Of a stretch of DNA of 64,000 nt, positions 33,901 to 48,873 are shown piece after piece. Each line of letters opens with the position of its first letter. The first letter of the stretch is position 1. Origin of the DNA: Planctomycetia bacterium. GTDB taxonomy: Bacteria > Planctomycetota > Planctomycetia > Pirellulales > UBA1268. The notes beneath the pieces were generated by a model. It saw only the letters and a list, made by a program, of their open reading frames with translations. It did no database searches and had not been told where the DNA came from. The position numbers were made by a program, and so were the translations under genes. The stretch is from positions 1-64,000 of the forward strand of contig BJHK01000007.1 of NCBI GenBank assembly GCA_014192425.1, given 5' to 3'.

Positions 33901-35245
33901 CGTGGCGGCCGTGAACGCTCAGCCCGCCGGCACGGTCGACTTGATCCCGGTGAGCACGGGCGACCAGCCGGCCAAGGCCGCGGCGGCACTGGAGGCCCTC
34001 GGGCTCGACTCCACGGCGATCGATCCCGACCGCACGCTCGCCGGGCAGTTCGAGGTCCGTCAGGTGCCGACCCGGGTGATCGTCGGCGCCGACGGAAACG
34101 TCGTCGACGTTCTCCGCGGCGACGGCGCGGAGAGCGTCGAGGAGTTTCGGATGGTGCTCGCGGCCGCCGTGGTCGAGGCAGAACCGTTGCGCAGGGAACT
34201 GGCGCGGCTCAACGACGCCCGGACACTCGCGGAGCGCGGGGACCGGGAGGCCCTGGAGCAGATCGCGCCGCTGCTGGCGTCGACGCACGCGCCGGTGCGT
34301 CGCGCGAGCATCGCACTGCTGCGGCGGATCGCGCCGACGGCGCTGCCGGCCGGCCTCTCACCCCAGGCGACGGGGGCATTCGGCGGAGCCCAGCTGACCG
34401 CCGATGTCAGGCTCGATCGCGAGGTGGCCGCCTGGAAACGCTGGATCGCCCGCGAGGGGATCGTGGCCCTGTTGCGGCCCCTGTCCACGCCGGCTGGCGA
34501 CCGTGACCAGCGGCCGGCGGAGGAGCGCGGGCGGTTGCTGGTTTGTCTGCCGGGCAGAAACGAGGTGGGCGAGTTTTCGCTCGACGGCCGGAAACTGTGG
34601 AACCGGGCGTTCAAGAAACCCGGGGCATGCGCGGGCCTGCCGAACGGCCATCGGCTCGTCGGGTCCGCGGCCACGCCGGGCAACGTCGTCGAGTTCGATG
34701 CCGACGGCAAGGAGGTCTGGCGGCTCAACGACCTGCCGGCCGGCGTGACGAGCGTGGCTCGCCTGCCCGACGGCAACACGCTCGTCGGCTTCGACTCGCA
34801 GCGGGTCGCAGAATACGACCGGGAGACGACGCAGGTCTGGGAGGCGGCCGTCGTCGGCCGTCCGTGCGCCGTCTTCCGGCTCGACGGTGGCACGACGCTC
34901 GTCGCCTGCCAGGAGAGCGACCGGATCGTGGAGATCGACAGGGATGGGGGTGAAATCTCCGCCATCGACGAACTGCATGGCCTCCAGAGAGCGGTGCGGC
35001 TGGCGAACGGGCACGTTCTGGCCACGATGACCGACAAGGTGGTCGAACTGGACGCGACGGGGGGCGTCGTTTGGACGCGGGATGGATTCAACGGCGCCAT
35101 GGCCGCCGACCGGCTCGCGGACGGCCGGACGCTCGTGCTCGATGCGCAGCAGGGCATGATCGTGGAACTCGATGCCGCCGGCGCAGAAACTGGCAGGAAG
35201 CCGCTGCGCGGCGTGCGCGGGGCGACGGGGATGGATGCCTATTGA
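30986..35245 (+). CDS. Large secreted PDZ / thioredoxin-like / beta-propeller protein
   Basis: 1419 aa. The ATG at 30986 follows AGGTGA with good spacing. Signal peptide RLALVAVLVALNTASAA. The N-terminal ~550 residues are repetitive beta units of the type 'VxLxdGsxltGxvegid' (LMLQGGDSLTGSLEGIDAET). A PDZ domain lies at ~551-650 (LVSHDGQGHCVVTRLSPDGA, DRIVAIAPEKG). A thioredoxin-like domain lies at ~949-1060 (RVLVLEFWSEWSEPARTTLP, RQVPTRVIVGADG). Its active-site position reads W-S-E-W-S-E-P, with no CxxC. From ~1181, a propeller with repeated 'GxxxEFdxdGkxvW' blades closes the protein. It may be a non-redox scaffold; function unknown. Confidence 0.75.
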   Translation: MSAEARAEPGAVSSVGPGFGRAAGLRWCGRLALVAVLVALNTASAADERPAGQGPAAERLRRGVLDAADGGFLPGRFAPLPALAGGRETFAWRSPAFAAPFEFFIDEVVGVRFGPPAAAPAVGPWRLMLQGGDSLTGSLEGIDAETVTLGVAGRRVGVRRRFIEQLIRSGTTAGGLVPTFGWTQLPPGSWREDAGGWSTSQRGAALQRDVDDAARLIYDIVLTWDKTPAFRIAASADGAKGVEPFRVELFPAVEGDPIDNLLVVREEATRAVLQTAADAVPAAVRRRLPAGRLRLLLFVDQPRGRLAVALPESGDSAAVIDVSLPPDAGRRAARRFRLTSGGAVRLESLRVSRWMDEAPLPQRREGTTINGAAGRLAAGELESFDAAAGDVVVREPAGPRRVPLADVVEVLFPLAAGPRDVAKPAGPPAVCVTCLHEQAASGRLVSIDEEALWLASDAFVEPLPLPLATILSFAGVRRAVEPRPLPTRVGTLRQESLEVRGSLVAAPGGLAWQPLGSRTASPFVAGRDGGPDGVVEYVMRGTLAENAEGDQDVGGMGGLVSHDGQGHCVVTRLSPDGAAALDGRIEVGDRIVAIAPEKGSEFVETTGIELDDVMNLLRGVVGTQLRLKVVDGEGMNQRQVDLARGRLGIRSPQILKQALDAHARLAPGEIEIEGQIAGFPALLFMRSGDVVPCAVQGIGPEGIRIRTPAVAGTAGEPLLVPAADVKAVELAPRIASRKLETSRRDRLLTLPRSQRFDPPTHLVRLVDGDYLRGRVQSLDEAHIVVEVPPGDEKRIPRAAVARVIWLHPEELTAAPAPAGNAGRPVTGTRAQGVAANGTRVTLAVADMQEGRIRGRIAALGPGVIDIGAMDRVLLGGAIDREAGALPYQQWKLKPAPEPRALRGGRDEPAAGARPRIPLSGLAGKPAPACALTRIDARGTALRAAPAAAAGRVLVLEFWSEWSEPARTTLPEIVAAVNAQPAGTVDLIPVSTGDQPAKAAAALEALGLDSTAIDPDRTLAGQFEVRQVPTRVIVGADGNVVDVLRGDGAESVEEFRMVLAAAVVEAEPLRRELARLNDARTLAERGDREALEQIAPLLASTHAPVRRASIALLRRIAPTALPAGLSPQATGAFGGAQLTADVRLDREVAAWKRWIAREGIVALLRPLSTPAGDRDQRPAEERGRLLVCLPGRNEVGEFSLDGRKLWNRAFKKPGACAGLPNGHRLVGSAATPGNVVEFDADGKEVWRLNDLPAGVTSVARLPDGNTLVGFDSQRVAEYDRETTQVWEAAVVGRPCAVFRLDGGTTLVACQESDRIVEIDRDGGEISAIDELHGLQRAVRLANGHVLATMTDKVVELDATGGVVWTRDGFNGAMAADRLADGRTLVLDAQQGMIVELDAAGAETGRKPLRGVRGATGMDAY

Positions 35246-35250
35246 GTGTT

Positions 35251-35847
35251 GTCGCGCCGTCGCCGCCGTCCCGGCGTCGGCGACGGCTTACGGTCGCCGG
35301 GCGAAGCCCCGGCTCCCACGCCGGGCTTCCGCCCGGCGGTTTGTATGCACGCTTGCTGGTGGGCGCATCCCGGCGTCGGCGACGGCTTACGGTCGCCGGG
35401 CGAAGCCCGGCTCCACGCAGGCGATGATTGCACCGTTGCAGGCACTTGTGGAGCCGTGGGATCGGCGGAACCTCGAGGAGCGTGAGGCTATCCTGCCTCA
35501 GCGACGAGAGTTCTGCCGTCCCGCGGCGGGTTGGGCGGGTTGCTCCTCTGTCGCGCCGTCGCCGCCGTCCCGGCGTCGGCGACGGCTTACGGTCGCCGGG
35601 CGAAGCCCGGCTCCCACGCCGGGCTTCCGCCCGGCGGTTTGTATGCACGCCTGCTGGTGGGCGCGTCCCGGCGTCGGCGACGGCTTACGGTCGCCGGGCG
35701 AAGCCCGGCTCCACGCAGGCGATGATTGCACCGTTGCAGGCACTTGTGGAGCCGTGGGATCGGCGGAACCTCGAGGAGCGTGAGGCTATCCTGCCTCAGC
35801 GACGAGAGTTCTGCCGTCCCGCGGCGGGTTGGGCGGGTTGCTCCTCT
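35251..35847. repeat. Near-perfect ~299-bp tandem duplication, two copies
   Basis: Copy 1 spans 35251-35549 and copy 2 35550-35847. They differ mainly by one extra C and a few substitutions. Each unit contains two GGCTTACGGTCGCCGGGCGA modules with a GCCGGGC/GCCCGGC hairpin, and the segment GGAGCCGTGGGATCGGCGGA. Related modules recur at 49.85-50.2 kb. It directly follows the stop of the 1419-aa gene. I see no coding potential beyond shadows. Confidence 0.9.
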
Positions 35848-36090
35848 GTCGCGCCGTTGCAGCCGACACGGCGGCTGCTCCGGCTTACGGTCGCCGGGCG
35901 GAGCCCGTCGACCAGCATGGGCGCCGTGGGGTGTGCTTGTGCACGTCGCGCCGTTGCAGCCGACACGGCGGCTGCTCCGGCTTACGGTCGCCGGGCGGAG
36001 CCCGTCGACCAGCATGGGCGCCGTGGGGTGTGCTTGTGAACGGCGCGCCGTCGCAGCCGACACAGCGTCGGCTCCGGCCTGCCTTGGAAA
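35848..36090. repeat. 97-bp tandem repeat (two exact copies plus a partial third)
   Basis: Copies at 35848-35944 and 35945-36041 appear identical except at the very end; the third decays after ~45 bp. They share the GCTTACGGTCGCCGGGCG core with the 299-bp units to the left. The array ends about 50 bp before the IS3 orfA start, so the whole 35.25-36.09 kb stretch is repeat material without genes. Confidence 0.88.
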
Positions 36091-36143
36091 TCCTGATCCA
36101 GCGGATATGAAGGTCTACTGCCCCACGGGCAAGGAGACTTTCG

Positions 36144-36431
36144 ATGACGACGAGACGACGGAAGAAGCACCGTCCCAAGGAGATCGTTGCGAAGCTGCGT
36201 GATGCGGAAGCAATGCTGAACGCAGGTAAGGATCTTGCGGCGGTGCTGCAGGCCTTGGAGGTCAGCGAGTCGACGTTCGATCGCTAGCGAGCCCAGTACG
36301 GCGGGATGAAGTGTGAGGAAGCCAAGAAGCTGAAGCAGCTTGAGGATGAGAACAAGCGGCTGAAGACCTTGGTGGCGGATCTGTCCCTCGACAACCAGAT
36401 GCTCAAGCATCTCTCGGAGGGAAACTGGTAA
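36144..36431 (+). pseudogene. IS3-family transposase orfA, interrupted by an amber stop
   Basis: Preceded by AAGGAG. It reads MTTRRRKKHRPKEIVAKLRD... with the helix-turn-helix of IS3 OrfA, then TAG at 36285-36287 where the family has Trp (STFDR-stop-RAQYGGMK). Downstream the frame continues as the leucine-zipper region KLKQLEDENKRLKTLVADLS and ends GNW-stop. One base change therefore inactivates it. It would otherwise be the DNA-binding regulator/fusion partner of OrfB. Confidence 0.88.
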
Positions 36432-37165
36432 GCCCTTCCCGGAAGCGAGCGGCAGTCGCGGAACTCCAGCGGGAGTTCCGCGTTTCCAAGCGAAGGTGGC
36501 TTGCCAGGTGGTTGGCCAGCCGCGGAGTAGCCAGCGTTTCGAGGGTAAGCCCCGGACGGACGAAGCACCGCTGGTGAAGCGGATGCGTCAGCTGTCACGG
36601 GCGAAGCCGCAGTATGGGTATCGACGGATCGGATGGCTTCTTCGGAGCGTGGGCTGGCATGTTGGCTTGTCGCGTGTGTTTCGGTTGTGGCAGCGGAAGG
36701 GCCGAAAAATGCCTGTAAAGAAGCGGAGAAAGCGTCGCCTCCGCTCGAGCGTCAATGGCATGCCACCGCCGGCGGGCGGAGGCTCCGAATGACGTGAGGT
36801 GCTGGGACTTCGTGTTCGACCGGACAACGAGCGGCAGCCAGCTGAAGTGGCTGTCGGTTGTGGACGAGTACACCCGCGAGTGCCTGGCCCTGAAAGTGGA
36901 TCGCGGCATCACAAGCGAGGACGTGATCAATACCTTGGCCGAGCTGTTCGCTATGCGCGGCGTTCCTCGGCACATCCGCAGCGACAATGGACCCGAGTTT
37001 ATCGCTCAGACCCTACGTCGCTGGCTCAAACTGGTGGGCGTTGGCACGCTGTACATCAAGCCGGGGAGCCCGTGGAAGCTCTCGGCTACGCCGAAAGCTT
37101 CCACGGGCGGCTGCGCGATGAGTTCCTGGCGATGGAGATCTTCGAGGGCGTCCGGGATGCCCGGG
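36428..37165 (+). pseudogene. IS3-family transposase orfB, multiply frameshifted and truncated
   Basis: The IS3 orfB sequence is spread over changing frames. VSPSRKRAAVAELQREFRVS starts at 36428. A shift near 36495 continues as CQVVGQPRSSQRFEGKPRTD and YGYRRIGWLLRSVGWHVG. A shift near 36760 leads to NDVRCWDFVFDRTTSGSQLK, DEYTRECLALKVD and RSDNGPEFIAQ. A shift near 37075 leads to LGYAESFHGRLRDEFLAMEI. All three DDE residues can be recognised across frames, but no full protein is possible. The usual C-terminal NHxRPHSSL segment is missing, so the 3' end of the element has been lost next to the PEP-CTERM gene. Confidence 0.88.
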
Positions 37166-37251
37166 CCCTCACAGCCCCGTTTCCTAAACCCTCATATCCC
37201 CTGGTACAGGAAATCCAACCCAGTCAACTGCCCAAGGGGCCAGGTGGCAGC

Positions 37252-39492
37252 TTACGCGGCGTCTCTGCGGACCCGGCGGCGGAGGCTACGAATCCAGAGG
37301 CTGGCAAGGCCGCTGCCGATGCCAAGGAGGCCAAGCGTGACCGGCTCGGGAACGATCACCAGTTGGCCGTAGGAGAAACCGCCTTCAGCGACGTTGTTGC
37401 GGAATTCCATCACCGTACTTCCGGAGGTCACCTGCCAGACGTCATCCACGAGTGCCCACACGCCTTGGTACTGGCTGGCAGGATCGAAGACGATACCACC
37501 GAACGACCCGCTGGTCTCGTTGAGTTCGTATTTGAACAGGTTGAACGTGCCGCTCGAGAACGTCTGGTTGAAGTTCAGCGTCATCGTGCCGCCATAGGTC
37601 AGGCCGCCGCCGTTCGCTCCGCCAGTGATGTCGATGGCGTCATACTGCGTGCCCCGCCCGGAGCCGGTGATCTCCATGATCACGTTACCGGTCGAACCGA
37701 GCGCGACCGACGTGTCGTCGAAGGTCAGAAGCCCAGGGCCGTTGCCCGGGGAGAGCTTGCCATTGATCGTGACGATCGTCGGGCCGCCGCCGCCGCCGGC
37801 CACGGTGCCGCTGCCCATAAGCGTCTGGCTGCCGGTGAACGTGTACGCCGCGTCGGTGACGTCGAGCCTGGCGCCGGAGCCGGCCGCGGTGCCGACGACG
37901 ACAGTGCGGCTCGAACCGATCGACGCGCCCGCGCCGATCGTCAATCTGCCGGCCTCGATCTGCGTCGTTCCGGTGTAGGCGTGACTGCCACCGAGCACCC
38001 AGCGACCCAGGCCGGACTTGATGAGCGCCGTCTGGCCGCCGTTGTCAGCCAGAGCGGTGGTGAGCGTGTTCGTCCCGGTGTTCGTACCGGAGAGCGTGAA
38101 CACCCGGTCACCGGTTTGACCGTTGAAGCCCATCGTGCCGCCGCCGGTGAAGGTCAGCACACCCGTCGTGCCGTCGGCAACGATCCCGCCGCCGCCGGTG
38201 CCAATACTGAACAGGCGGTTCGTCGAGCCGCTGCTGCCGCCGGAGTAGCGCAACTGGCCGCCGCTGAAGACGAGGTTTGACGTGGAAGACGAAGACATGC
38301 CGAGCGGCGAGCCAAAACCCAATCGCAAGCCATTGGTAGGACTAGTGTTAATTGCGCTACTCGTGGTGAAAGTCGACCCCGTGATGGCGGTAACGAATAC
38401 TCCGGCTCCCGATAGTGGCGTGGCAATATCGTTGCCATAAAAAATCCGCATGCCAACCTCGATTCCCTGCATCGAGCCTGGAGTAACCGTAGTTCCGCTC
38501 ACGGTGTACGTGCTTGGCGCGACACTAACGCCCGCATTTCGAATCGAATTGATGTCGAGCGTACCCGACTGAATATTTGTAAAACCGCTGTACCAGTTTG
38601 TGGTGCCGGTGAGCGTCAGCATCGCTTCGCCTTCCTTCACCAGGCTCATCGTTCCGCGATTTCGGTCAAGCATGGAGTTGAAGATACCGCCCGAATAGGT
38701 GCTGCTGACGAGCGACAGTACCGCGAACGTTGAACTGACGACAGTATTGTTGCCGTGGAACACCTGGCCGGTGCCGGACAGGTTGTTCACGCGTTGAGAC
38801 AATTTGGTTAAATCGTTAGCCGCAGACGTCAGCAACCTTCCGTTGTTGATGAATGAACCGAATCCAGCGCCAGTTGGAAGGGCAGAACCGGTGGCGAATC
38901 GGATCGAGCCGTCATTGATAAGATTGCCGGTGAAATTGTTGGTCGCGTTTGAAATTTCAACATTAGAACTTGCATTTCCGTCTACAGTATCGCCAATGAT
39001 TCGAAAGTTTCCGCTGCCGGTCAGTTGGGAATCCAGAGTAGAATTCCGGGTAACTGGATAGTTGAACGTGACCGTTCCGCTGCTCAGGTTGAGGATGAGC
39101 GACGAGGCGAAGCTGCTGCCGTTGCCCCATGTCGATTGGATGGCAGTAAACCCCGTGTTGGCATCGAATGTGAGCGTCTGCGTGCCTGTCGAGGCTTCAA
39201 ACCTAGAGACACGTACAGTTGGAACTGGAACAGTGACTTGGCCCAGGTTGATCGAGCCAGAGCTGACGGTGTAGGGGGCAGAGAACTGAAACACCGGGTT
39301 GCCACTGTACGTGCCGGTCGTGGTGTTCGTAATCACACCTCCCGTCCAGTTGTCGGTGTTGTTCCACACGATGGTTCCGGTAATCGTCCCGGAGGGCAGG
39401 ATCTGCGCCCAGGCGGGAACCGGGACGAATGCGACGGCGATTGCCAGAAAGGCGGCGAAATGCAGTGCCTTAGTCTTGTTCACGATGTACAC
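37252..39492 (-). CDS. PEP-CTERM protein with autotransporter-associated beta-strand repeats
   Basis: 746 aa from GTG 39492, which follows AGGGGG. The signal peptide is ALHFAAFLAIAVAFVPVPAWAQ. The body is a beta-helix of Gly/Thr/Ser/Asn-rich repeats with typical PATR phrases (LVKEGEAMLTLTGTTNWYSG, LIKSGLGRWVLGGSHAYTGT, IEAGRLTIGAGASIGSSRTV, GKLSPGNGPGLLTFDD). It ends VIVPEPVTLGLLGIGSGLAS plus an Arg-rich tail, a PEP-CTERM signal for exosortase-dependent surface sorting. The N-terminal half is noticeably AT-richer than its surroundings. It abuts the IS3 remnant at its 3' end. Role: surface adhesin or structural protein by inference. Confidence 0.88.
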   Translation of the reverse strand: MYIVNKTKALHFAAFLAIAVAFVPVPAWAQILPSGTITGTIVWNNTDNWTGGVITNTTTGTYSGNPVFQFSAPYTVSSGSINLGQVTVPVPTVRVSRFEASTGTQTLTFDANTGFTAIQSTWGNGSSFASSLILNLSSGTVTFNYPVTRNSTLDSQLTGSGNFRIIGDTVDGNASSNVEISNATNNFTGNLINDGSIRFATGSALPTGAGFGSFINNGRLLTSAANDLTKLSQRVNNLSGTGQVFHGNNTVVSSTFAVLSLVSSTYSGGIFNSMLDRNRGTMSLVKEGEAMLTLTGTTNWYSGFTNIQSGTLDINSIRNAGVSVAPSTYTVSGTTVTPGSMQGIEVGMRIFYGNDIATPLSGAGVFVTAITGSTFTTSSAINTSPTNGLRLGFGSPLGMSSSSTSNLVFSGGQLRYSGGSSGSTNRLFSIGTGGGGIVADGTTGVLTFTGGGTMGFNGQTGDRVFTLSGTNTGTNTLTTALADNGGQTALIKSGLGRWVLGGSHAYTGTTQIEAGRLTIGAGASIGSSRTVVVGTAAGSGARLDVTDAAYTFTGSQTLMGSGTVAGGGGGPTIVTINGKLSPGNGPGLLTFDDTSVALGSTGNVIMEITGSGRGTQYDAIDITGGANGGGLTYGGTMTLNFNQTFSSGTFNLFKYELNETSGSFGGIVFDPASQYQGVWALVDDVWQVTSGSTVMEFRNNVAEGGFSYGQLVIVPEPVTLGLLGIGSGLASLWIRSLRRRVRRDAA

Positions 39493-39531
39493 CGTAACCC
39501 CCCTATGAAAAAAACGGACGTCTGATGAGGA

Positions 39532-39552
39532 CGAGCAAAAGGTTTTTGCTCG
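39532..39552 (-). promoter_or_regulatory. 9-bp stem hairpin in the leader of the PEP-CTERM gene
   Basis: CGAGCAAAA and TTTTGCTCG are separated by three bases, 40 nt upstream of the GTG start of the minus-strand gene. There is no adjoining T-tract on that strand, so it is more likely a leader structure than a terminator. Its function is not established. Confidence 0.35.
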
Positions 39553-39644
39553 GAATGAGCATCGCGGAATTCCCGAAAGGAAGCCCCCGACCTCAAACAT
39601 CAGCAGAATACCCGGGACGCCCGATTTTTGCAAGTCCCGGGTCG

Positions 39645-39883: not shown

Positions 39884-42700
39884 TTATCGGCCGTAGGTGG
39901 GGAGGTGCCGGTAGGGCACTTCCAGGGCCAGCAGGTGGAGAGCCGTCACGTAGATCCGGCCGCCGTACACACCCCACCGGTCGGGCACCGGCCCGAGCGG
40001 GTCCCAACTGCCCCGCTTCGCCCCCGCCGTCTCCTGCTGCGCAGCCAGCGTCTCCACCAGCGCGGCATACCAGCGGTCCCAGTCGGCGCCCTCGTCGTGC
40101 ACGAGGACTTGCGATGCGTAGTACCAGAGGTAGGCGTCGCGCGTCCGGTTGGAGGAACTGCCATACGACGGGAGCAGGGCGGCGAGCACGCGACAGGGTT
40201 CCTTGACGCCCGGCGCCCGGGGCGTGTCCCCCGTGTGCAGCCGCATCAGCGCGCCCACGGCCGTCATGCAGGAGATCGAGAGCGCCGAGGGACGCTGCTG
40301 CGGACTCCGCGGGTTGTAGGCATAGCGGGCCGGATCCGCCGGCGATGCCGACGCCTCCACGAGCCGGCGGATGCCGGCGAGCGTCGCAGGCTCGGTCTTC
40401 ACGCCGGCCAGATCGCCCGACCGGAGCGCGACCAGCATCCAGCCGCTCACCGAGAGATCGGCGTCGGTGCCGGGCGTGTATCGCCAGCCGCCGCGCTCGC
40501 GATGCTGGCTCGCGGTGATGAACCTGCAGGCCTTCTCCGCCGCGGGCCGGAGCCGCGGATCACCCGTCATCCCCACCGCCTCGCAGACCGCGATCGCCGC
40601 GATGCCGTGACTGTAGAGCCAGGCGCAGCTGTTGGAGAGGTCGTCGGCGGGAACGTAGAGGTCACCGTTCTCCTTCTGGATGGAAAGCAGATACTCGAGC
40701 CCGCGCCGGACCGTGTCGCGGTGCGGGCCGCCGTAGTGATCGTGCCCCGCCCCCAGAAAACTCAAGAGCGCGAGGCCCGTGGCCGCCGTGTCGGACTGCA
40801 GGCGCGGTGCGTCTCCCGCCCCGGCGCCGGCGAACCGGCCCAGCGACCAGCGGCCGTCCGGCTGCTGCGAGCGGGCGAGGAACTCGAGGCCCCGGTCCAC
40901 CAGCCGGTCGGCCGTCTCGGCCGCCGACCCCGGAGCGGACGGGGGCCGGGATTTCGCCCGCAGGGCAAACGCCTCGGCGACGTCACGCACGCGGCCGTCG
41001 GTGGGCAGCACCGTCGCCGTCGCGAGCCGCTCCAGCGGTCCCGTCTGCGTCGTGGCCGGCGGCTCGGTCGCGTCGCGACGCGGCGCGGATGCGACCGTGG
41101 CGACGTTTGGCACTGACTCCGGCGCCGACAAGGGCACGGACAATTCCTCGTCGTCGGCTTCGGCCAACGCGATGTCGGGTCGAGCGAGAGCGCTGCCCGT
41201 TGCGGGCCGGTCGCTACGACCGGGAAGCGGCAGCGGTGTCGCGGTGCCGACGATCGCCGACGGGCCGACGACCGGCGCCGCGACGGGCGCGGCGATCGCG
41301 TCGGCCCGGTCGCCCCCCGCGGCCGCCGACGCCACGCTGCTGGCGCGGGAGATCGGCTCCGGGTTTGCCTGCGCGAGCGATGGCAGGCCGCCGGCCGCGG
41401 TGTCGCCCGTCCGGGCCGCGCCGACTGCGCCCACCGTCGGGGCGACGGGCCGCGGACCGACCGGCAACGACGCCGGCCCATCCGCGATCGCGCCGGTCGC
41501 CGCGCTGGCTCCACCGGAGACGGCCGGCGCGGCCGACGACTGCGGCCGGCCGCTGCCCTGCGGCGCCGGTGCCGGGCCAGGGCGCGAGCCGGATCCCACG
41601 ACCCGCGGCGCCGCCAGCGCCGCGACCGCGCCGGCGACGCCGCCGGCGGAGGCATCGGCCGTGGACCGGCGGCCGACGCTGGCCGGCTGCGCGACCGGCA
41701 TGCCGGCGTCCCCCTTCGCGACTCGGGCCGCGGCGCCGCTCGACGCCGCAAGCGCCGCGTCGGCCCGCGGAATCGCCACCAGCCGAGGCGCCTCGCCTTC
41801 GCTGCCTGCCCGAGCTGCAGTGGCAGCCGCCGTCCCGCGCGGTGCATCACGCTCCCGCGGCTGCGCGGCCGTCGCGAGCGCGGACGAGGATGAAGATGAG
41901 GAAGTCGCGACGGCGGGCGCCGCCACGGGGTCGATCGTGGTGGCGGCGTCGGCACCTGCCGCGATCGTGGCCTGCCGGCCGGGCGACGGAGCGGCCGGCC
42001 CGGCCGCCAGATCCGCGGGATCGGTCGAGCGGGGGGCGGTCGTGGCCGGAGCGACCGGCGCCGTCAGCCGCTCGAGAAGCGCTATCTCGCGCGGTCGCCA
42101 ACGCGAGGTGATCTGGGGAGCGGGGGCCGCGGCCCGCGCCGGCGCGGCCGCAGGCATCGCGGCCGGTGCGGGGGCGACGGCCTGGGAATCGCTCGGGGCG
42201 GCGGCCGCGGCGATCGGTTCCACGCGAGCCTGCGGCGCGGCCGCGGCCGGCATCGACTCGCGCGCAGGAGACTGCGTCGGCGCCGGCGCAAGCGCCGTGT
42301 CGAGCGGCCGGCTGGGGCGTGCCGCGGGGGCCGCAGGCGTCGGCTGCGGTGCAGGCACGGTCTCCTCCGGACGACGCTCGGCGACCTCGCGGGTGCGTTC
42401 CGGAACCGGCGGCGTGCGCTGTGGCTGCGGGGGCGGCACCGGCAGCGGCAGATCGAGCGGCCGCTCGTGGGCCGGGGGCGAGGGGGGCGACTTCTGCACC
42501 TGCAGGGGAAAATCGGCCCGGGGCCGCTCCTGCCGCGGCTTCGTCTTCTCCGCTTCGGCAGCCCGCTCGGCGTCGAGCCTGAGCGTGGTGACGGCGAGGC
42601 CGCGGGTGAGCAGGAAGTGCAGCAGGAGGCTGGCCGCGGCGGCGGCCAAGAGCCGCCTGCGGTAGGACCCCCGACGCTCGTCGGCCGCACGCCCCGTCAC
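39884..42700 (-). CDS. TonB-like protein with C-terminal prenyltransferase/terpene-cyclase-like barrel
   Basis: 938 aa. The N-terminal helix AAAAASLLLHFLLTRGLAV anchors it. Then comes a Pro-rich TonB-like stretch (PPPQPQRTPPVPERT) and a very long Ala/Pro/Ser low-complexity region (~100-560). Residues ~620-938 are alpha/alpha-barrel repeats of the squalene-cyclase/prenyltransferase type: LEFLARSQQPDGRWSLGRF, TGLALLSFLGAGHDHYGG, LEYLLSIQKENGDLY, YASQVLVHDEG. No DxDD catalytic motif is evident. It ends the TPR-ExbB-ExbD operon and overlaps exbD by 4 nt. It probably receives proton-motive-force energy from ExbBD and presents the barrel in the periplasm (inference). Confidence 0.82.
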   Translation of the reverse strand: MTGRAADERRGSYRRRLLAAAAASLLLHFLLTRGLAVTTLRLDAERAAEAEKTKPRQERPRADFPLQVQKSPPSPPAHERPLDLPLPVPPPQPQRTPPVPERTREVAERRPEETVPAPQPTPAAPAARPSRPLDTALAPAPTQSPARESMPAAAAPQARVEPIAAAAAPSDSQAVAPAPAAMPAAAPARAAAPAPQITSRWRPREIALLERLTAPVAPATTAPRSTDPADLAAGPAAPSPGRQATIAAGADAATTIDPVAAPAVATSSSSSSSALATAAQPRERDAPRGTAAATAARAGSEGEAPRLVAIPRADAALAASSGAAARVAKGDAGMPVAQPASVGRRSTADASAGGVAGAVAALAAPRVVGSGSRPGPAPAPQGSGRPQSSAAPAVSGGASAATGAIADGPASLPVGPRPVAPTVGAVGAARTGDTAAGGLPSLAQANPEPISRASSVASAAAGGDRADAIAAPVAAPVVGPSAIVGTATPLPLPGRSDRPATGSALARPDIALAEADDEELSVPLSAPESVPNVATVASAPRRDATEPPATTQTGPLERLATATVLPTDGRVRDVAEAFALRAKSRPPSAPGSAAETADRLVDRGLEFLARSQQPDGRWSLGRFAGAGAGDAPRLQSDTAATGLALLSFLGAGHDHYGGPHRDTVRRGLEYLLSIQKENGDLYVPADDLSNSCAWLYSHGIAAIAVCEAVGMTGDPRLRPAAEKACRFITASQHRERGGWRYTPGTDADLSVSGWMLVALRSGDLAGVKTEPATLAGIRRLVEASASPADPARYAYNPRSPQQRPSALSISCMTAVGALMRLHTGDTPRAPGVKEPCRVLAALLPSYGSSSNRTRDAYLWYYASQVLVHDEGADWDRWYAALVETLAAQQETAGAKRGSWDPLGPVPDRWGVYGGRIYVTALHLLALEVPYRHLPTYGR

Positions 42701-43140
42701 TGGTCGCTCCCGCGTCTCCCTGACTCCTCGTCAGCCGCCGACTGCACCTGGTAGTTCTCGATGCCCGCCTCGACGCAGGCATTCATGGCGCCGACGACGT
42801 GCTTGTGGAGCGTGTTTTCGTCAGCGCGGAGGATCACCGCCTGCCGCTCCGGATTGTCGGCCGCCGCCTGGCGCAAAAGCGACGTAAGCTCGTCGAGCGG
42901 CACGGGGCGGGCGCCGGCGAAGTAGTTGCCCTCGCGGTCGATGTTGACGACGAACTCGCGCGGCCGGCTCGTGAGCGGCCGGGCGGCGCTGGCGTGCGGC
43001 AGGACGACGTCGATCGAGCGGTCGGCCTCATCGAGCTTGCTCGCCACGAGGAAGAAGATCATCAGCAGAAATACGATGTCAATCATCGACGTCATCTCCA
43101 GCCCCGTGCCGAGCCGCCCCTTGTCGATGCGGACGCTCAT
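42697..43140 (-). CDS. exbD: ExbD/TolR-type biopolymer transport protein
   Basis: 147 aa. A short cytoplasmic N-terminus precedes one membrane helix, MIDIVFLLMIFFLVASK, that contains the essential Asp of ExbD/TolR (MTSMIDIVFLL). A periplasmic domain follows (VVNIDREGNYFAGARPVPLD, AVILRADENTLHKHVVGAMN). With ExbB it forms the proton channel that energises a TonB-type partner. Its start overlaps the ExbB stop (ATGA) and its end overlaps the start of the TonB-like protein, so the three are tightly coupled. Confidence 0.92.
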   Translation of the reverse strand: MSVRIDKGRLGTGLEMTSMIDIVFLLMIFFLVASKLDEADRSIDVVLPHASAARPLTSRPREFVVNIDREGNYFAGARPVPLDELTSLLRQAAADNPERQAVILRADENTLHKHVVGAMNACVEAGIENYQVQSAADEESGRRGSDQ

Positions 43141-43910
43141 GTCTTGGCCCCCGCCGCAACCCCGGCCGGCGGCACCGCTGGAGGCGCCGCGGGAGGCACA
43201 GAGCGGGCCTCGGACGAGAGCTGCGCGGGGCCGAGCCGGCCCTTGTTCTCATACCGCTCGAGGTGCGGCAGGACGAGATCGACGACCTCATCTACCTCGC
43301 GGAACCCCTTGAGGATTCGCCCCTCGATGAAGTGGGCGAGGATGGCGGCGGGGATCGCCACGCACAGGCCGGCAAAGGTCGTGATCAGCGCCACGTAGAT
43401 GCCGTTGGCCAACTCGGCGGCCCGGTTGGCCCCCGCCTCGAGATTCGCCGTGGTGTAGAAGGCGAGGATCATTCCTTGGACCGTGCCGAGCAGGCCGAGG
43501 AGCGGCGTCACCGTGACGGCGAGGCTGATGGGCCGAACGTTGGCGTACAGCCGGGAGGCCTCGCGGTCCTTCGTCACCTCGACCGCCCGCTCCAGTTCCG
43601 GCACCGGCCGGCCGGTTTTCTCGAGCAGCGCCTCGAGGACGTCGGCCGCCACCGAGGGATGCTGCCGGCAGAGCCGGTAGGCGGCCCGGGGATCGAAGCC
43701 GGCCGCGCCGGTGAGCTTCTCCATGCCGGCCTGCAGGCCGCGCGGGAGAATCCGCGACCGGCGCAGGGCGGCGAGCCGCTCGATGGCGAACGTCGCGACG
43801 ACGATCGACATGCCGAGGATCGGCCACATCAGCAGGCCGCCCTGGAGGAACAGTTGCCAGAGCGTCTGCACGCGTTCAAAGGTCACGGAAGCGGTCACGG
43901 GCACGGTCAC
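43137..43910 (-). CDS. exbB: MotA/TolQ/ExbB proton channel protein
   Basis: 257 aa from a GTG at 43910 that overlaps the TPR gene's stop (GTGA). The first helix is GGLLMWPILGMSIVVATFAI. The conserved channel core comprises ISLAVTVTPLLGLLGTVQGM and YVALITTFAGLCVAIPAAIL, the two helices of the TolQ/ExbB signature. A Pro/Ala-rich tail ends the protein. It forms the stator channel with ExbD. Planctomycetes have many such ExbB-ExbD sets tied to TPR proteins; this one adds the prenyltransferase-like barrel downstream. Confidence 0.92.
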   Translation of the reverse strand: MTVPVTASVTFERVQTLWQLFLQGGLLMWPILGMSIVVATFAIERLAALRRSRILPRGLQAGMEKLTGAAGFDPRAAYRLCRQHPSVAADVLEALLEKTGRPVPELERAVEVTKDREASRLYANVRPISLAVTVTPLLGLLGTVQGMILAFYTTANLEAGANRAAELANGIYVALITTFAGLCVAIPAAILAHFIEGRILKGFREVDEVVDLVLPHLERYENKGRLGPAQLSSEARSVPPAAPPAVPPAGVAAGAKT

Positions 43911-46900
43911 GAACCTCCGCGGGGTGTGAGAGCCTCGAGCCGCTTGCGGGCCGCGGCGACGTGCTCCGAATCGGGGTAGCGTTCGACGAGTTCGGCGTAC
44001 AGGCCGCGGGCCTGCTCGGGCTTCTTCAGGACCTCGAAGCACCGTGCCGCCTCGAACGTGGCCTGCGCCTGCCAGGGATGAAACGCGGGGGGCGCCTGCT
44101 TCTCGCCAAAACCGTAGGCGACCTTGAAGAACGCCTTGACAGCCTCCTTGTGCGCGCCGCGTTCGAAGAGCACCTCCCCCTCCATGAGCCGGGCGCGGGC
44201 GGCGAGCTCCGTCCGCGGCCCGTCGGCGATCGCCCGGTAGCCGGCGAGCGCGTCGTCGAGCCGGCCGAGGTTCTGCCGGGCCCAGGCGGCGGCGTAGCGG
44301 GCCTGCGGCGCCAGCGGTGACTGCGGGGCGGCCGCGAGGAACCGTTCGGCGAGGGCCAGGCTCTCCGGCCACTTCTCCTGCCGGGCGGCCGCCTCGGAGG
44401 CGCGGATGAACGTGCCGTCGCGAAGCTCCGCGGACGACAGGGAAACCTCGGGGCTGAGGGCCACGGCGAAGGCCTGCTCGGCGTCGGCGGGCTTGCCCTG
44501 CTGGAGGAGCGCCTCGCCGAGCAACGCCTGGGCGTCCACCGCGAACGCGCCGCGGGGGGCCGCGGCAACCTGCGCGGCGAAGGCCTGCGCGGCGCCGGCG
44601 TGGTCCTTCTGCGTGAGACGCGTCCAGCCGAGCTTGTGCCACGCCTGCTCGACGACGAGGTCGCGGCGGCCGGCGGGCGCCGCCGCGGCCGCGGCGATCG
44701 CCCCCTGGTAGGCCTTGGCTGCCTCGTCCCAGCGCTTCTCGCGCCAGGCCGCCTCGCCGCGCTCCAGCCAGGCCTCCGCGGCGTACGCGCTCTTCGGGAA
44801 TCGGTCGACGAGCGTGGCGAACGTGGCCGCCGCCTCGGCCCCCTTGCCGTCGAGCGTCTCCGCCACACCGAGTTCGAAGAGGACACGGTCGGCAGCCGCG
44901 AACTGCGGCTGCTCGGCAAGGAGCCGACGAAACGCCGCTGCCGCCTGGGCGTATTTTTTCGTGCCGGCGAGGCACAGCCCCTGGAGCAGGCGGGCCTCGC
45001 CAAGCGCCGCCTGGTCGAGCGGCTTGGCACCGCGCTGCTCGGCGAGCAGCCGCTCCACGTCGGCCAGCGCCGCTTCGTGGTCACCGCGCCGCTGGCGGAC
45101 GTCGGCCCGGGCGAGCAGGGCCGGCTGCACGGCCGGCGACTGCGGATGTTTCTCCACGAGGTCGGTCCACGCCCGGACCGCTTCGGGCAGCCGGCCGGCC
45201 CCCTCGTGGCACCAGCCGCTGGCGAGCAGCGCCCAGCCCGCCCGGGGGCCATCGGGCCGCGCCGCCAGCGACTTGCCGAAGGCGGCGAGCGCATCGTCGA
45301 AGCGGCGTGCTTCCTGCCGCAACTGCCCGACCCGAAACCAGGACACGTCGGCATTCTGTCCGGCCGGAAACTGCGCCACGAGCCGCTCCCCCGCGGCGAG
45401 CGCGGCGGAGGCGTCGCCCCCGTCGCGCAGGGCCCGCACGGCGAGCAGCAAGGCCTCCTCGCGGCGGCTCCACTGCGGGCTCGACTTTTCGAGAACGGCG
45501 AGGAGCGTGGCGGCGTCGGCGGGCCGCTTGAGTTCGACGAGCGCGGTGGCGGCGAGGAACCGGGCCTCGGCCTGCTGGTCTCCCGAGAGCACCGGGATCA
45601 GGGGCACGAGGAGGTCGGCGACCCGCTGCCACTGCCGCTCCGCGGCGAGCGCCGCGGCCTCGCGCAGCTGCCAGGACGGTCGCTTCGGGGACCGCTCCGC
45701 CGCGGCGACGAGCTCGCGGTAGGCGTCGGCGGCCGCGGCCGTCTTGCCCAAGCCGATCAAGGCCTCGGCCCGCACGGCGCGGACGTCGAGCGCGGTCTCG
45801 TTCCCCGGCGTGGAGTTGGTAGCGTGCTTGGCAAGAAAGGCGTCGGCGCGGGCCAGCGCCTGGGCCGGTTGTTGCTGATCGAGAAAGGCGACCGCCGCCA
45901 TCGACAGCGCGGGGCCGGCCGCGGACGAATCGGGACGCTTGTCGGCGATCGCCGCGTAGGCCGCGGCAGCCTCGGCACGTCGCTCGGGGATCGCCCACAG
46001 CGCGTCGGCGCGGTCGAGCTCGAGCTTCGGCACGAGTACCGGATCGGCGTCCTTGCGGCCGGCGATGGCGGTGAGCGCCTTGGTGGCGATGTCGAGCGCC
46101 CTGGCAGGCTGCTTGGCGTCGAGTTCGAGCAGGGCGAGGCGGTGCGCCGCGTCAAAGGCTTCCGCGCCGGCCCCGGCGACGGCCTTCTCCAGCAGCGGTC
46201 GGGCATCGGCCGGGCGGCCCGCCTCCATGAAGCCGCGGCCAGCGGCCACGGTCGCCCGGGCGGCCAGCGGCGAGGTGGCGTGGTCGCGGGCCAGCCGCGC
46301 GAACGCGTCGGCGGCCCCGGCCCAGTTCTTCTGCTTCCAGCGGGCGTTGCCCAGCCGGTCGAGGGCCTCCGCGGCACGCGGGCCAGCAGCGGCGGCGACC
46401 GGCTCCAGCACCTTCTCGGCGACGGCGGGCTGGTCGGTGGCGAGCGCCACGTCGGCCCGCCACAGGGCGACGTCGTCACCGAGCGCGTGCTTGGGAAACG
46501 TGGTGGCGAAGCGTTCGAGCGTGATCGCGGCCTCGGCCCGCTTGCCGGTCTCGGCCTGGCCGACGCCGAGCGCGTAGAGGACCTCGGCCATGCGCTGCGA
46601 GTCGGGATGCGCCTTCACGAACGTCGTCCAGGCCGCCAGCGCCTCGTCGCGCTTGCCCGCCTGCCACAGCGCCTCGCCGAGGAAGTGGGTGGCGTCGGCC
46701 GCCTGCGGCTGCCCCGGCGATATGTCGAGGAACTCGCGCAGGTCAGCGGCGGCGGCAGCGTAGGCCGCAGGGGAGGGGGCGGCCTGCGCGGCGACGAATG
46801 CCCCGCGGCCGAGCTCCCAGCGGGCGAGCGCCTTCGTGGCCGCGTCGGCGGGGCTCGAGACCACGTCGCGGAGCGTCTTGGCAGCCGCGGGCCACTGCTC

Positions 46901-47242
46901 GCTCTTGAGCTGGCAGATGCCGAGGTAGTAGCGGGCCTTGAGGGCGAGCGGATCCTGCGGATGGTCCTTCTGCAGCGCCTGCCATTCCTCGGCGGCGAGG
47001 TCCCAGGCCTCGCGATTCTGCAGGGCGGCGGCGGAGGCGTAGGCGGCGCGGGCCGCATCGCTCGACTCCGGATCGGCGGCGCGGGCCGGCGCGACGAGGC
47101 TCAGAAGGAGCCAGAACCGAAAGATCCAGAACCGAAAGATCCAGGACCGGAGACCAAGCCAGGACACGAGGGAGCGTGAGGGGTAGCGCGAGACCAGGCA
47201 GCCGGCGACAGGACGGACGGTCCGTGAATCCTTGCGATGCAT
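43907..47242 (-). CDS. Secreted TPR-repeat protein, first gene of the ExbBD operon
   Basis: 1111 aa. The hydrophobic N-terminus includes a duplicated WIFRFWIFRFW before LLLSLVAPARAAD, so a signal peptide is likely. The rest is a solenoid of some 20-25 TPR-like units (AEEWQALQKDHPQDPLALKA, AWTTFVKAHPDSQRMAEVLY, LYAELVERYPDSEHVAAARK), resembling YbgF/BamD-type repeats that work with TolQR/ExbBD systems. No catalytic motif. It overlaps exbB by 4 nt. It probably forms a periplasmic scaffold for the energised complex. It is ~170 bp downstream of the terminator of the neighbouring PEP-CTERM gene. Confidence 0.85.
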   Translation of the reverse strand: MHRKDSRTVRPVAGCLVSRYPSRSLVSWLGLRSWIFRFWIFRFWLLLSLVAPARAADPESSDAARAAYASAAALQNREAWDLAAEEWQALQKDHPQDPLALKARYYLGICQLKSEQWPAAAKTLRDVVSSPADAATKALARWELGRGAFVAAQAAPSPAAYAAAAADLREFLDISPGQPQAADATHFLGEALWQAGKRDEALAAWTTFVKAHPDSQRMAEVLYALGVGQAETGKRAEAAITLERFATTFPKHALGDDVALWRADVALATDQPAVAEKVLEPVAAAAGPRAAEALDRLGNARWKQKNWAGAADAFARLARDHATSPLAARATVAAGRGFMEAGRPADARPLLEKAVAGAGAEAFDAAHRLALLELDAKQPARALDIATKALTAIAGRKDADPVLVPKLELDRADALWAIPERRAEAAAAYAAIADKRPDSSAAGPALSMAAVAFLDQQQPAQALARADAFLAKHATNSTPGNETALDVRAVRAEALIGLGKTAAAADAYRELVAAAERSPKRPSWQLREAAALAAERQWQRVADLLVPLIPVLSGDQQAEARFLAATALVELKRPADAATLLAVLEKSSPQWSRREEALLLAVRALRDGGDASAALAAGERLVAQFPAGQNADVSWFRVGQLRQEARRFDDALAAFGKSLAARPDGPRAGWALLASGWCHEGAGRLPEAVRAWTDLVEKHPQSPAVQPALLARADVRQRRGDHEAALADVERLLAEQRGAKPLDQAALGEARLLQGLCLAGTKKYAQAAAAFRRLLAEQPQFAAADRVLFELGVAETLDGKGAEAAATFATLVDRFPKSAYAAEAWLERGEAAWREKRWDEAAKAYQGAIAAAAAAPAGRRDLVVEQAWHKLGWTRLTQKDHAGAAQAFAAQVAAAPRGAFAVDAQALLGEALLQQGKPADAEQAFAVALSPEVSLSSAELRDGTFIRASEAAARQEKWPESLALAERFLAAAPQSPLAPQARYAAAWARQNLGRLDDALAGYRAIADGPRTELAARARLMEGEVLFERGAHKEAVKAFFKVAYGFGEKQAPPAFHPWQAQATFEAARCFEVLKKPEQARGLYAELVERYPDSEHVAAARKRLEALTPRGGS

Positions 47243-47382: not shown

Positions 47383-48087
47383 TCAGGCGGTGTGCCGCGA
47401 TCCGGAGCGGCGAACCCTCCGCCGGACTTCGAGGCCGGCGAGCGCGGTCAGACCGATGCCGGCGAGGGCCAGCGTCGAGGGCTCGGGGACCGCAGTGATG
47501 CTCATTGCAGCCTTGTCGGAGAAGAAGTCCCCCGAGGACCAGTTTGCCCCGGCATCGTCAGAGTACCGGGACTTGGGGCTCGTGGTCGCCCAGCCGCTGG
47601 AGTTCTGGGCAGCCAAATCATTGAGCCCAGCATTCGCCGTCCAGATGAAGCCACCACCCACGTCCGGGGTCGAGACAACGACCCAGTACGAGGAGCCGGA
47701 CGTCAGTTGCTGGTCGAAATTGAACGTGTAAAGCGACGGGGTGTTAATTCCCGAAATCGCCAAGGTGCCTGAAGCCAGTGCCGCACCGGTCGGCGCTGAA
47801 CCGGAACTCGCGAAGAGTTGCACGCGAGCATTGTTTCCGTCGCTGTCCAGCAGGCCGAGCGTGACGGAGGTCAACCTATCGTTTACGCCCCCCACCGTGA
47901 AACCCTGAGCAGCGTAGTTGGAGTCCGACACGCCAGGACCGGCTCCCGCAAGTGCGGCTGAGCCCGAAGTGCCCAGATTGCCGAAGACGACCTCGGCACG
48001 AGCCGGAGCGGAGGCGAGCAAGGCGACCAGACCGACGGCGGCGCAGGCCGCGCGGCGGGTGAAGAAACCGAATACGTTCGACGACAT
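47383..48087 (-). CDS. Small PEP-CTERM secreted protein (choice-of-anchor R type)
   Basis: 234 aa. ATG 48087 is set by AAGGAG 7 nt upstream and by the signal peptide RRAACAAVGLVALLASAPAR. The domain pattern NYAAQGFTVGGVNDRLTSVT, LGLLDSDGNNARVQLFASSG and SGSSYWVVVSTPDVGGG is that of 'choice-of-anchor R' secreted beta-sandwich proteins. The C-terminus AVPEPSTLALAGIGLTALAG plus Arg residues is a PEP-CTERM signal. It has its own strong terminator and ~790 bp of upstream non-coding DNA, so it is probably a monocistronic, regulated surface protein. Confidence 0.88.
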   Translation of the reverse strand: MSSNVFGFFTRRAACAAVGLVALLASAPARAEVVFGNLGTSGSAALAGAGPGVSDSNYAAQGFTVGGVNDRLTSVTLGLLDSDGNNARVQLFASSGSAPTGAALASGTLAISGINTPSLYTFNFDQQLTSGSSYWVVVSTPDVGGGFIWTANAGLNDLAAQNSSGWATTSPKSRYSDDAGANWSSGDFFSDKAAMSITAVPEPSTLALAGIGLTALAGLEVRRRVRRSGSRHTA

Positions 48088-48873
48088 GGAGCGACTCCTT
48101 TTCGAGGTTGAAAGTGAACCGATGTGAGACAAGACCTTGGACACGAGATTCGTTCGTTTGCTGACGCTGGGGACTCCACGCTGGAGAACCCAACCTCGTA
48201 GGACGGCGGAGGAATATGCGAACCCCGTGCCAATCGCCGAAACGTTTTTCAGGGTTTGCACGGGGAACACGTTAAAAGCCGCTTAATCGCTTGAATTTTG
48301 AGGATCGGTTGAGGATGAGAGGTCGAGCCGCTCAGGCCGGCTTTCGCGTTTCCAATCCCTCACCGTTCCGGGAATCACCACATTCGTGAGCCGTCTCACC
48401 AAAATGGTGAGAACCCGCTCGATGCCGGTCGCAGACCACACAGGCCAGCCACCTCCGCTCCCAGGGGGAGAGAGGGGGCAGAACAGGCGAACGCCACTGC
48501 GGGGTCGAGAGCCGATAAAAACAGTTCAAAAGCCTGAAAACAGGCCTAATCAACGCTGGGAAGGGCGCTGATCCGGGGAGGGCAGGACAAGTTCAGACGT
48601 GAGGGCAACAGCCACAGTGACCATGGAGCGTTCCTTTCGAAAAACAGGGACAAAACCGTCAAAAAAGGCCCATCTGCGAGCGTCAAACCAATCTTTTCCG
48701 GCGAGCAGCCGCCGGCGGGGCCGACCGGCATGCAGGCCGTGGTGAAGGGCGACCTCAGGGCTGCCTTTCACAGGGAGAAAACAAATGCAGATGCCGTGCC
48801 AAATTCGAAAAGACTTTGGTTCTTCCTGTAAAAAGGCCGAAAACCCTGCTGTTTCGCGATACATGGGGGCCGC
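48088..48873. other. 786-bp divergent intergenic region without recognisable genes
   Basis: It separates the minus-strand PEP-CTERM gene from the plus-strand dehydrogenase. It is AT-richer than the window average, with several A/T runs (near 48270-48300 and 48640-48670). A small GCCTG-AAAA-CAGGC inverted repeat lies at 48532-48545. Both promoters must lie here, but I cannot place them. No frame gives a convincing protein. Confidence 0.5.

Follow-up and report, generated by a model that had tools for sequence, protein, structure and literature searches.

What does an ExbB/ExbD-type motor move when the protein encoded beside it ends in a squalene-cyclase-type barrel instead of a TonB domain? 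The question is raised by a four-gene operon of Planctomycetia bacterium (order Pirellulales, UBA1268), found in a 64,000-nucleotide stretch of DNA (assembly GCA_014192425.1, contig BJHK01000007.1, positions 1 to 64,000 of the forward strand) that is referred to here as the window. The components classically driven by ExbBD-type motors are TonB and TolA. In this operon, four minus-strand genes running from 47242 to 39884 encode, in series, a tetratricopeptide repeat (TPR) protein, ExbB, ExbD and a 938-aa barrel protein, hereafter called the transducer. On the evidence given below, it is likely that the operon encodes a self-contained envelope machine driven by the proton motive force, in which a cyclase-fold barrel takes the place of the TonB or TolA C-terminal domain.

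The four genes, their strand, their coordinates and the 4-nt overlaps between them were confirmed as given in the original prediction. Such overlaps occur at all three junctions: GTGA between the TPR protein and ExbB, ATGA between ExbB and ExbD, and GTGA between ExbD and the transducer. The start of the ExbB gene was corrected to a GTG at position 43910, which lies inside a longer frame and overlaps the stop codon of the TPR gene. The ExbB/TolQ-type proton-channel subunit (257 aa, 43137..43910) was assigned from these overlaps, from pore residues and from a match to MotA_ExbB (PF01618, 4.8e-23, 81.7 bits versus a cut-off of 22.9), obtained with a slightly shorter piece (43137-43898). The ExbD/TolR-type subunit (147 aa, 42697..43140) matched PF02472 at 3.4e-25 (89 bits versus a cut-off of 25.4). 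In alignments of the two subunits with their E. coli counterparts TolQ and TolR, the residues equivalent to the pore threonines T145 and T178 and to the third transmembrane segment proline P187 of TolQ were found to be invariant in 54 of 54 ExbB sequences. Likewise, the aspartate equivalent to the transmembrane pore residue D23 of TolR, which is D21 in the window (codon 43078-43080), was invariant in 59 of 59 ExbD sequences. By homology, an ExbB pentamer and an ExbD dimer would form a proton-driven motor of 5:2 stoichiometry.

The original prediction depended on this gene order being present elsewhere. GTDB genome contigs were scanned with a 28-sequence alignment (A1), yielding 463 relatives, of which the best 80 were kept (L077-L156). 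These 80 loci belong to planctomycete groups or to bacteria without a group label, and include Blastopirellula marina, Roseimaritima, Rhodopirellula europaea and R. solitaria. Sequence of at least 7.5 kb preceding the barrel was available at 47 of the 80 loci; in 42 of these 47, the order TPR-ExbB-ExbD-barrel was preserved, which indicates that the order is more than chance. Clustering of the flanking open reading frames (ORFs) from the window and 44 loci gave a commonest cluster shared by 15 of the 44, and the window was represented in none of the top 14 clusters. Because flanking genes vary, we take the conserved unit to be these four genes; no extra conserved partner gene was proposed from the clustering.

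The transducer (39884..42700) consists of a putative cytoplasmic stub, a single membrane helix, a long linker and the barrel. Its helix (residues 17-39, 42584..42652) reads LLAAAAASLLLHFLLTRGLAVTT, giving S24-x3-H28-x6-L35-x3-T39, an SHLS-type arrangement with Thr instead of Ser at the last position; the helices of E. coli K-12 TonB and TolA were used for comparison. According to the available text of PMC12215075, the TonB/TolA motif is Ser-x3-His-x6-Leu-x3-Ser, its Ser and His touch ExbB/TolQ, and the His is essential. Among 81 proteins (from the 80 loci and the window), 64 extend to the helix and 17 do not, due to a contig cut or an interrupted frame. His was found at the His position in 58 of the 64 and Ser at the Ser position in 50 (Cys, Ala or Gly in the others), and both were present together in 45. 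In these counts the helix was located by a profile whose two motif columns were masked but whose seeds were motif-bearing, with 56 rows passing and 8 more placed by eye. A search for the most hydrophobic segment gave [ST]xxxH in 40 of 64, with the wrong helix picked in some three-helix proteins. As a control, Ser-x3-His occurred in 10 of 651 transmembrane-like segments from other ORFs of the same loci. The TonB/TolA-type helix signature goes beyond the original prediction and, combined with the conserved pore residues, it supports the "energised envelope machine" proposed there, in which the energisation itself is what we infer. In such a machine the 938-aa protein would fill the TonB/TolA slot, with its helix docking on ExbB via Ser24 and His28. 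An RRR sequence precedes the helix; judging from these basic residues, the N-terminus would lie on the inner side and the barrel in the periplasm. The helix also varies naturally, with His replaced by Asn in L112, L122, L125, L129, L153, L180, L181 and L187, and Ser replaced by Ala with the His retained in L173; these variants could inform how essential the His is.

Between helix and barrel lies a low-complexity Ala/Pro-rich linker (residues 40-590, 40931..42583; ~26% Ala, ~16% Pro). Its length ranged from 332 to 1731 residues, with a median of 560, in the 36 of the 64 proteins examined for this feature. The linker was poorly conserved, apart from two membrane-near boxes that read ADFPLQV and AHERPLDL in the window (42449..42517). 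The two-box pattern was present in 38 of 64 membrane-proximal segments versus 0 of 530 linker blocks farther out, figures that are descriptive because the pattern was tuned post hoc on the same data. Since TonB and TolA carry a "motor box" strand at the corresponding position, according to the available text of PMC12204202, we propose by analogy that the boxes are a candidate motor box, which would engage the periplasmic domain of ExbD. The planctomycete periplasm can be greatly enlarged through membrane invagination, as described in the portion of PMC5394234 at hand, and the long tether would take the barrel across this wide compartment. A tRNA-Ala called by ARAGORN within the linker sequence (41555-41646, minus strand) is most likely a GC-rich false positive.

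The C-terminal domain (residues 591-938, 39887..40930) was modelled by AlphaFold2 from an alignment of the window's residues with those of 45 relatives (A2, 46 sequences). The resulting all-helical model was a confident alpha barrel of the squalene-cyclase type, as the original prediction had anticipated, with a mean predicted local distance difference test score (pLDDT) of 95.0 and a predicted template modelling score (pTM) of 0.94. The top PDB matches in Foldseek were squalene-hopene-cyclase-like single-domain proteins (8paj_B, E 2.2e-7). By VIA-align, the model matched 8pak_B with a Z of 27.0 (root-mean-square deviation 2.8 over 289 aligned residues) and 2sqc with a Z of 26.7; sugar epimerases, AprG and GH76 proteins share the fold at Z of about 22-23. 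The sequence profile of the barrel reached squalene-hopene cyclase at 2.9e-9, and the transducer had a weak Pfam match to SQHop_cyclase_C (2.2e-6, residues 596-680). The modelled fold is thus of the squalene-cyclase type; "prenyltransferase-like", the earlier description, holds at the level of the fold, although the domain lies nearer to the squalene and terpene cyclases. Neither TonB_C (PF03544) nor VWA gave a Pfam match in the transducer at E 0.1, in agreement with the claim that a TonB domain is lacking.

Enzymes make up most of the barrel's fold neighbours (cyclases, AprG, cellobiose epimerases, GH76), which raises an alternative: the transducer may be a membrane-tethered periplasmic enzyme acting on a terpenoid, glycan or lipid-linked substrate, while ExbBD serves something else, for example the TPR protein. 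Also in favor of an enzyme, 51 columns are invariant over the 46 barrel sequences. Many of these are polar or aromatic, and they include H65, Y106, H108, E117, W149-R150-Y151, D158, W269, W309, D317 and R325, indicating that the barrel cavity or a surface is strongly constrained. Three of nine barrel proteins in the window's own genome, moreover, look secreted without a transmembrane helix. However, DxDD, the catalytic motif of class II terpene and squalene-hopene cyclases, for which the original prediction had advised a check, was present in 0 of 46 barrel sequences, and no conserved acidic pair replaced it. In addition, the helix signature is kept far beyond what an ordinary anchor would call for (compare the control of 10 in 651), and the order with ExbBD is preserved in the 42 of 47 loci mentioned above. 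We therefore regard an enzyme of this kind as unlikely. More specific identities were set aside as well, namely a cyclase or hopene synthase, given the 0 of 46 for DxDD, and an alpha-2-macroglobulin-type thioester domain, which also has the toroid fold, given C-x-E-Q in 0 of 46. NCBIfam was consistent with the Pfam results, and there the transducer fell below all curated cyclase equivalog cut-offs. H108, C116, E117 and D158 are conserved in the barrel, as judged from sequence positions alone; the zinc site of the protein prenyltransferase beta subunit is Asp-Cys-His.

If the barrel is instead the working end of a proton-driven transducer, it would grip a partner in the periplasm, which would then be pulled or remodelled as the motor cycles. 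The first candidate for this grip is encoded in the operon itself. The TPR solenoid protein (1111 aa, 43907..47242) has a Sec-type signal peptide and is probably periplasmic, as judged from Pfam, NCBIfam, AlphaFold2 and the N-termini of its orthologues, most of which begin with signal-peptide-like sequences. It matched many Pfam TPR families (TPR_16 at 6.8e-45), and its AlphaFold2 model comprised 55 helices in one continuous solenoid (pLDDT 89.9, pTM 0.52). This secreted solenoid may be the operon's own periplasmic partner, adaptor or target.

The TPR protein also bears on what the machine might do. Its top NCBIfam match was tol_pal_ybgF (5.6e-66), a repeat-driven match, and the grouping of a TPR protein with a motor and a transducer in a single operon is reminiscent of tol-pal. 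TolB_N, furthermore, was found nowhere in the own genome and in only 1 of 25 genomes of the window's family and 1 of 40 relatives. The machine might then replace Tol-Pal in budding or fission, with an outer-membrane or wall partner and a CpoB-like TPR protein, a role that we put forward tentatively and consider doubtful. Against it, no Pal or TolB gene was found in the operon or the neighbouring ORFs scanned (Pal was not searched genome-wide), the linker and C-terminal domain are unlike those of TolA, and the presence of several barrel paralogues per genome suggests several targets. CpoB is also far smaller than the 1111-aa TPR protein.

We then considered the genomic setting. The window's genome is 96% complete and contains four MotA/ExbB loci, one of them the present operon. 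Of the others, L031 is a second ExbB-ExbD-[helix-barrel] set, with the helix sequence SVVLH, and another, L033, has a MotA-like gene. At L032 (7522-14197 of contig C17) the order is TPR-TPR-ExbB-ExbD-ExbD with no barrel gene seen adjacent; this motor has a paired ExbD, and its transducer, if any, is located elsewhere. Six of the nine barrel proteins of this genome are membrane-anchored, and Ser-x3-His is present in all six. Three motor-less paralogues in this genome carry a Cys-rich insert near the start of the barrel (CPSCRGKC in L159, CPNCNGKC in L160 and CRCNGAC in L161), which is perhaps a metal site. Among orphan barrels more generally, L072 (8098-9957, minus strand) and L068 (9472-11271, plus strand) contain a CPxCG stretch that resembles a zinc ribbon and, lying ahead of the membrane helix, is presumably cytoplasmic.

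ExbB is present in the genomes of 40 of 40 relatives, and a second-type ExbB-barrel pair no more than 3 kb apart was found in at least 23 of the 40, from listings compared by hand. TonB_C, by comparison, was detected in neither the own genome nor any of the 25 genomes searched from the window's family, and in 9 of the 40 relatives overall. A TonB plug domain was likewise without a match in the own genome, and was found in 1 of 25 family genomes and 12 of 40 relatives; G002 is the sole family genome with plug matches (two), yet it lacks TonB_C. Together with the lack of any Pfam receptor or porin match in the operon or the flanking ORFs scanned, these results bear out the statement that no outer-membrane receptor is nearby.

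The absence of TonB_C from all 25 family genomes is in keeping with another possible role, in which the machine would energise the entry of large substrates through the outer membrane, perhaps at crateriform structures. In planctomycetes, dextran is taken up into the periplasm, and uptake was seen in 0 of 816 cells treated with carbonyl cyanide m-chlorophenyl hydrazone (CCCP), as given in the accessible part of PMC5394234. That part leaves the dextran route to speculation on crateriform structures and its carrier open, and does not contain the word "TonB". The operon has no receptor or porin, however, the barrel is unlike a TonB domain, and the species in which dextran uptake was demonstrated are other planctomycetes, so that we judge this import role to be rather improbable. 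The proposed proton-driven machine is a candidate for macromolecule uptake, although none of the present results connects the two. A broader proposal, that barrel-tipped transducers throughout the phylum have taken the TonB/TolA slot and, several to a genome, share a few ExbBD motors, and that at least one of them powers uncoupler-sensitive macromolecule uptake, with its tether spanning the periplasm near crateriform structures, is speculative and in our opinion very unlikely.

How widely such transducers are distributed was assessed at several thresholds. A barrel match at E 1e-60 or better was present in 115 of 118 genomes of the class, and in a sample of the phylum a match at 1e-30 was present in 103 of 118 genomes. 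Orthologue-level barrels (E 1e-130 or better) were found in 23 of 28 genomes of the window's order but in only 1 of 90 others in the class. The machine had been called lineage-specific; this applies to the close orthologue, which is mainly confined to the window's order, but not to the barrel family, which is phylum-wide. Nineteen barrel ORFs, either second copies or from orders of the class other than the window's, were inspected by eye: 15 showed Ser-x3-His, 3 Ser-x3-Asn and 1 Ala-x3-His. At three such loci (L169, L172 and L173) the TPR-ExbB-ExbD-barrel order is complete. At 19 loci of other classes, Ser-x3-His was present in 19 of 24 barrel ORFs with a transmembrane-like segment, and L206 keeps the full order.

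Several observations weigh against a proton-driven, barrel-tipped transducer. First, the Trp in the first transmembrane segment (TM1) of E. coli TolQ contacts the Ser and His of TonB/TolA, but it appears not to be kept here: TolQ W32 stands opposite a gap in 54 of 54 ExbB sequences, with Phe or Leu as adjacent residues, in a locally ambiguous alignment. The TolQ S28 column is mostly Gly or Ala, the local alignment again being unsure. Second, the helix His is replaced by Asn in five of the 64 proteins and by Tyr in one. Third, the gene order is broken in 5 of the 47 loci: L151 has no motor genes upstream, L110 has the TPR gene only, L106 has ExbD only, L132 is truncated at the beginning of its contig, and L139 is without TPR and has 496 N at its start. 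Fourth, beyond the orthologue group the majority of barrels lack an adjoining motor, and because many of these nonetheless bear the helix signature, the helix might serve another role. Finally, the many invariant polar and aromatic residues of the barrel could mean an enzyme and not a gripping domain. In a 56-row tree, motor-linked barrels fell mainly into two clades and at least three label changes were needed, so that these barrels are not of one simple origin; in this tree all 16 orthologue rows were labelled as linked, though L151 is without a motor, L106 has ExbD only and some loci are cut.

The closest published precedent for the proposed machine, within the available text of PMC12204202 (Mol Biol Evol 2025), is a set of force transducers tipped by a von Willebrand factor A (vWA) domain, which follow the same plan but differ in their C-terminal domain. 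These SHLS-bearing proteins occur in the Planctomycetes-Verrucomicrobia-Chlamydiae (PVC) group, Planctomycetes included, and in others, downstream of TPR and TolQ/TolR-like genes. They share with the present transducer an SHLS-type transmembrane helix, a Pro-rich disordered linker and a C-terminal domain unrelated to that of TonB or TolA. Here, by contrast, an alpha barrel stands for vWA, there is one ExbD versus a pair, and the linker is ~550 versus ~100 aa; tethers of several times that ~100-residue length would fit an enlarged periplasm. The same text states that such putative systems point to diversity still to be discovered, and its main text contains neither "squalene" nor "prenyltransferase". 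Nothing comparable was present in the available portions of PMC12505986 or PMC12905483, and open-licence PubMed Central (PMC) text yielded no account of a squalene-cyclase-fold transducer encoded in an ExbBD operon, subscription papers being outside the search.

Compared with TonB-ExbBD, the operon has ExbB, ExbD and a single-helix transducer with Ser-x3-His-x6-Leu-x3-Ser/Thr and a proline-rich tether in common, but it lacks the TonB C-terminal domain and a nearby receptor, appears not to keep the ExbB TM1 Trp, and has a gene for a TPR protein in first place. It resembles TolQRA/Tol-Pal in having motor, transducer and TPR protein in a single operon, but has no TolA C-terminal domain and no TolB or Pal. 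With class II terpene cyclases (2sqc, 8paj, 8pak, 6sbe) the barrel shares the alpha/alpha fold and weak sequence kinship (2.9e-9), but it is devoid of DxDD in 46 of 46 sequences, is fused to a membrane helix and belongs to a motor operon.

Outside the four genes, a minus-strand gene (37252-39633) directly downstream of the operon encodes a 793-aa protein with passenger-type PATR repeats (1.5e-12) and did not emerge as a conserved neighbour. Directly upstream, a PEP-CTERM protein (1.2e-5) is encoded at 47383-48270 on the minus strand. An integrase-core (rve) ORF at 36755-37372 on the plus strand (2.5e-19), beside repeated-looking ORFs at 35172-36202, probably belongs to transposon remnants.

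With regard to annotation, such proteins match squalene-cyclase models yet are without the cyclase motif. The range of loads known for ExbBD-type motors would become wider with a class of barrel-tipped transducers that is conserved across the phylum and occurs even where a genome has no TonB match. For the planctomycetes, the barrel operon is a concrete, deletable candidate for energising their enlarged envelope, including the uptake of macromolecules that is blocked by an uncoupler.

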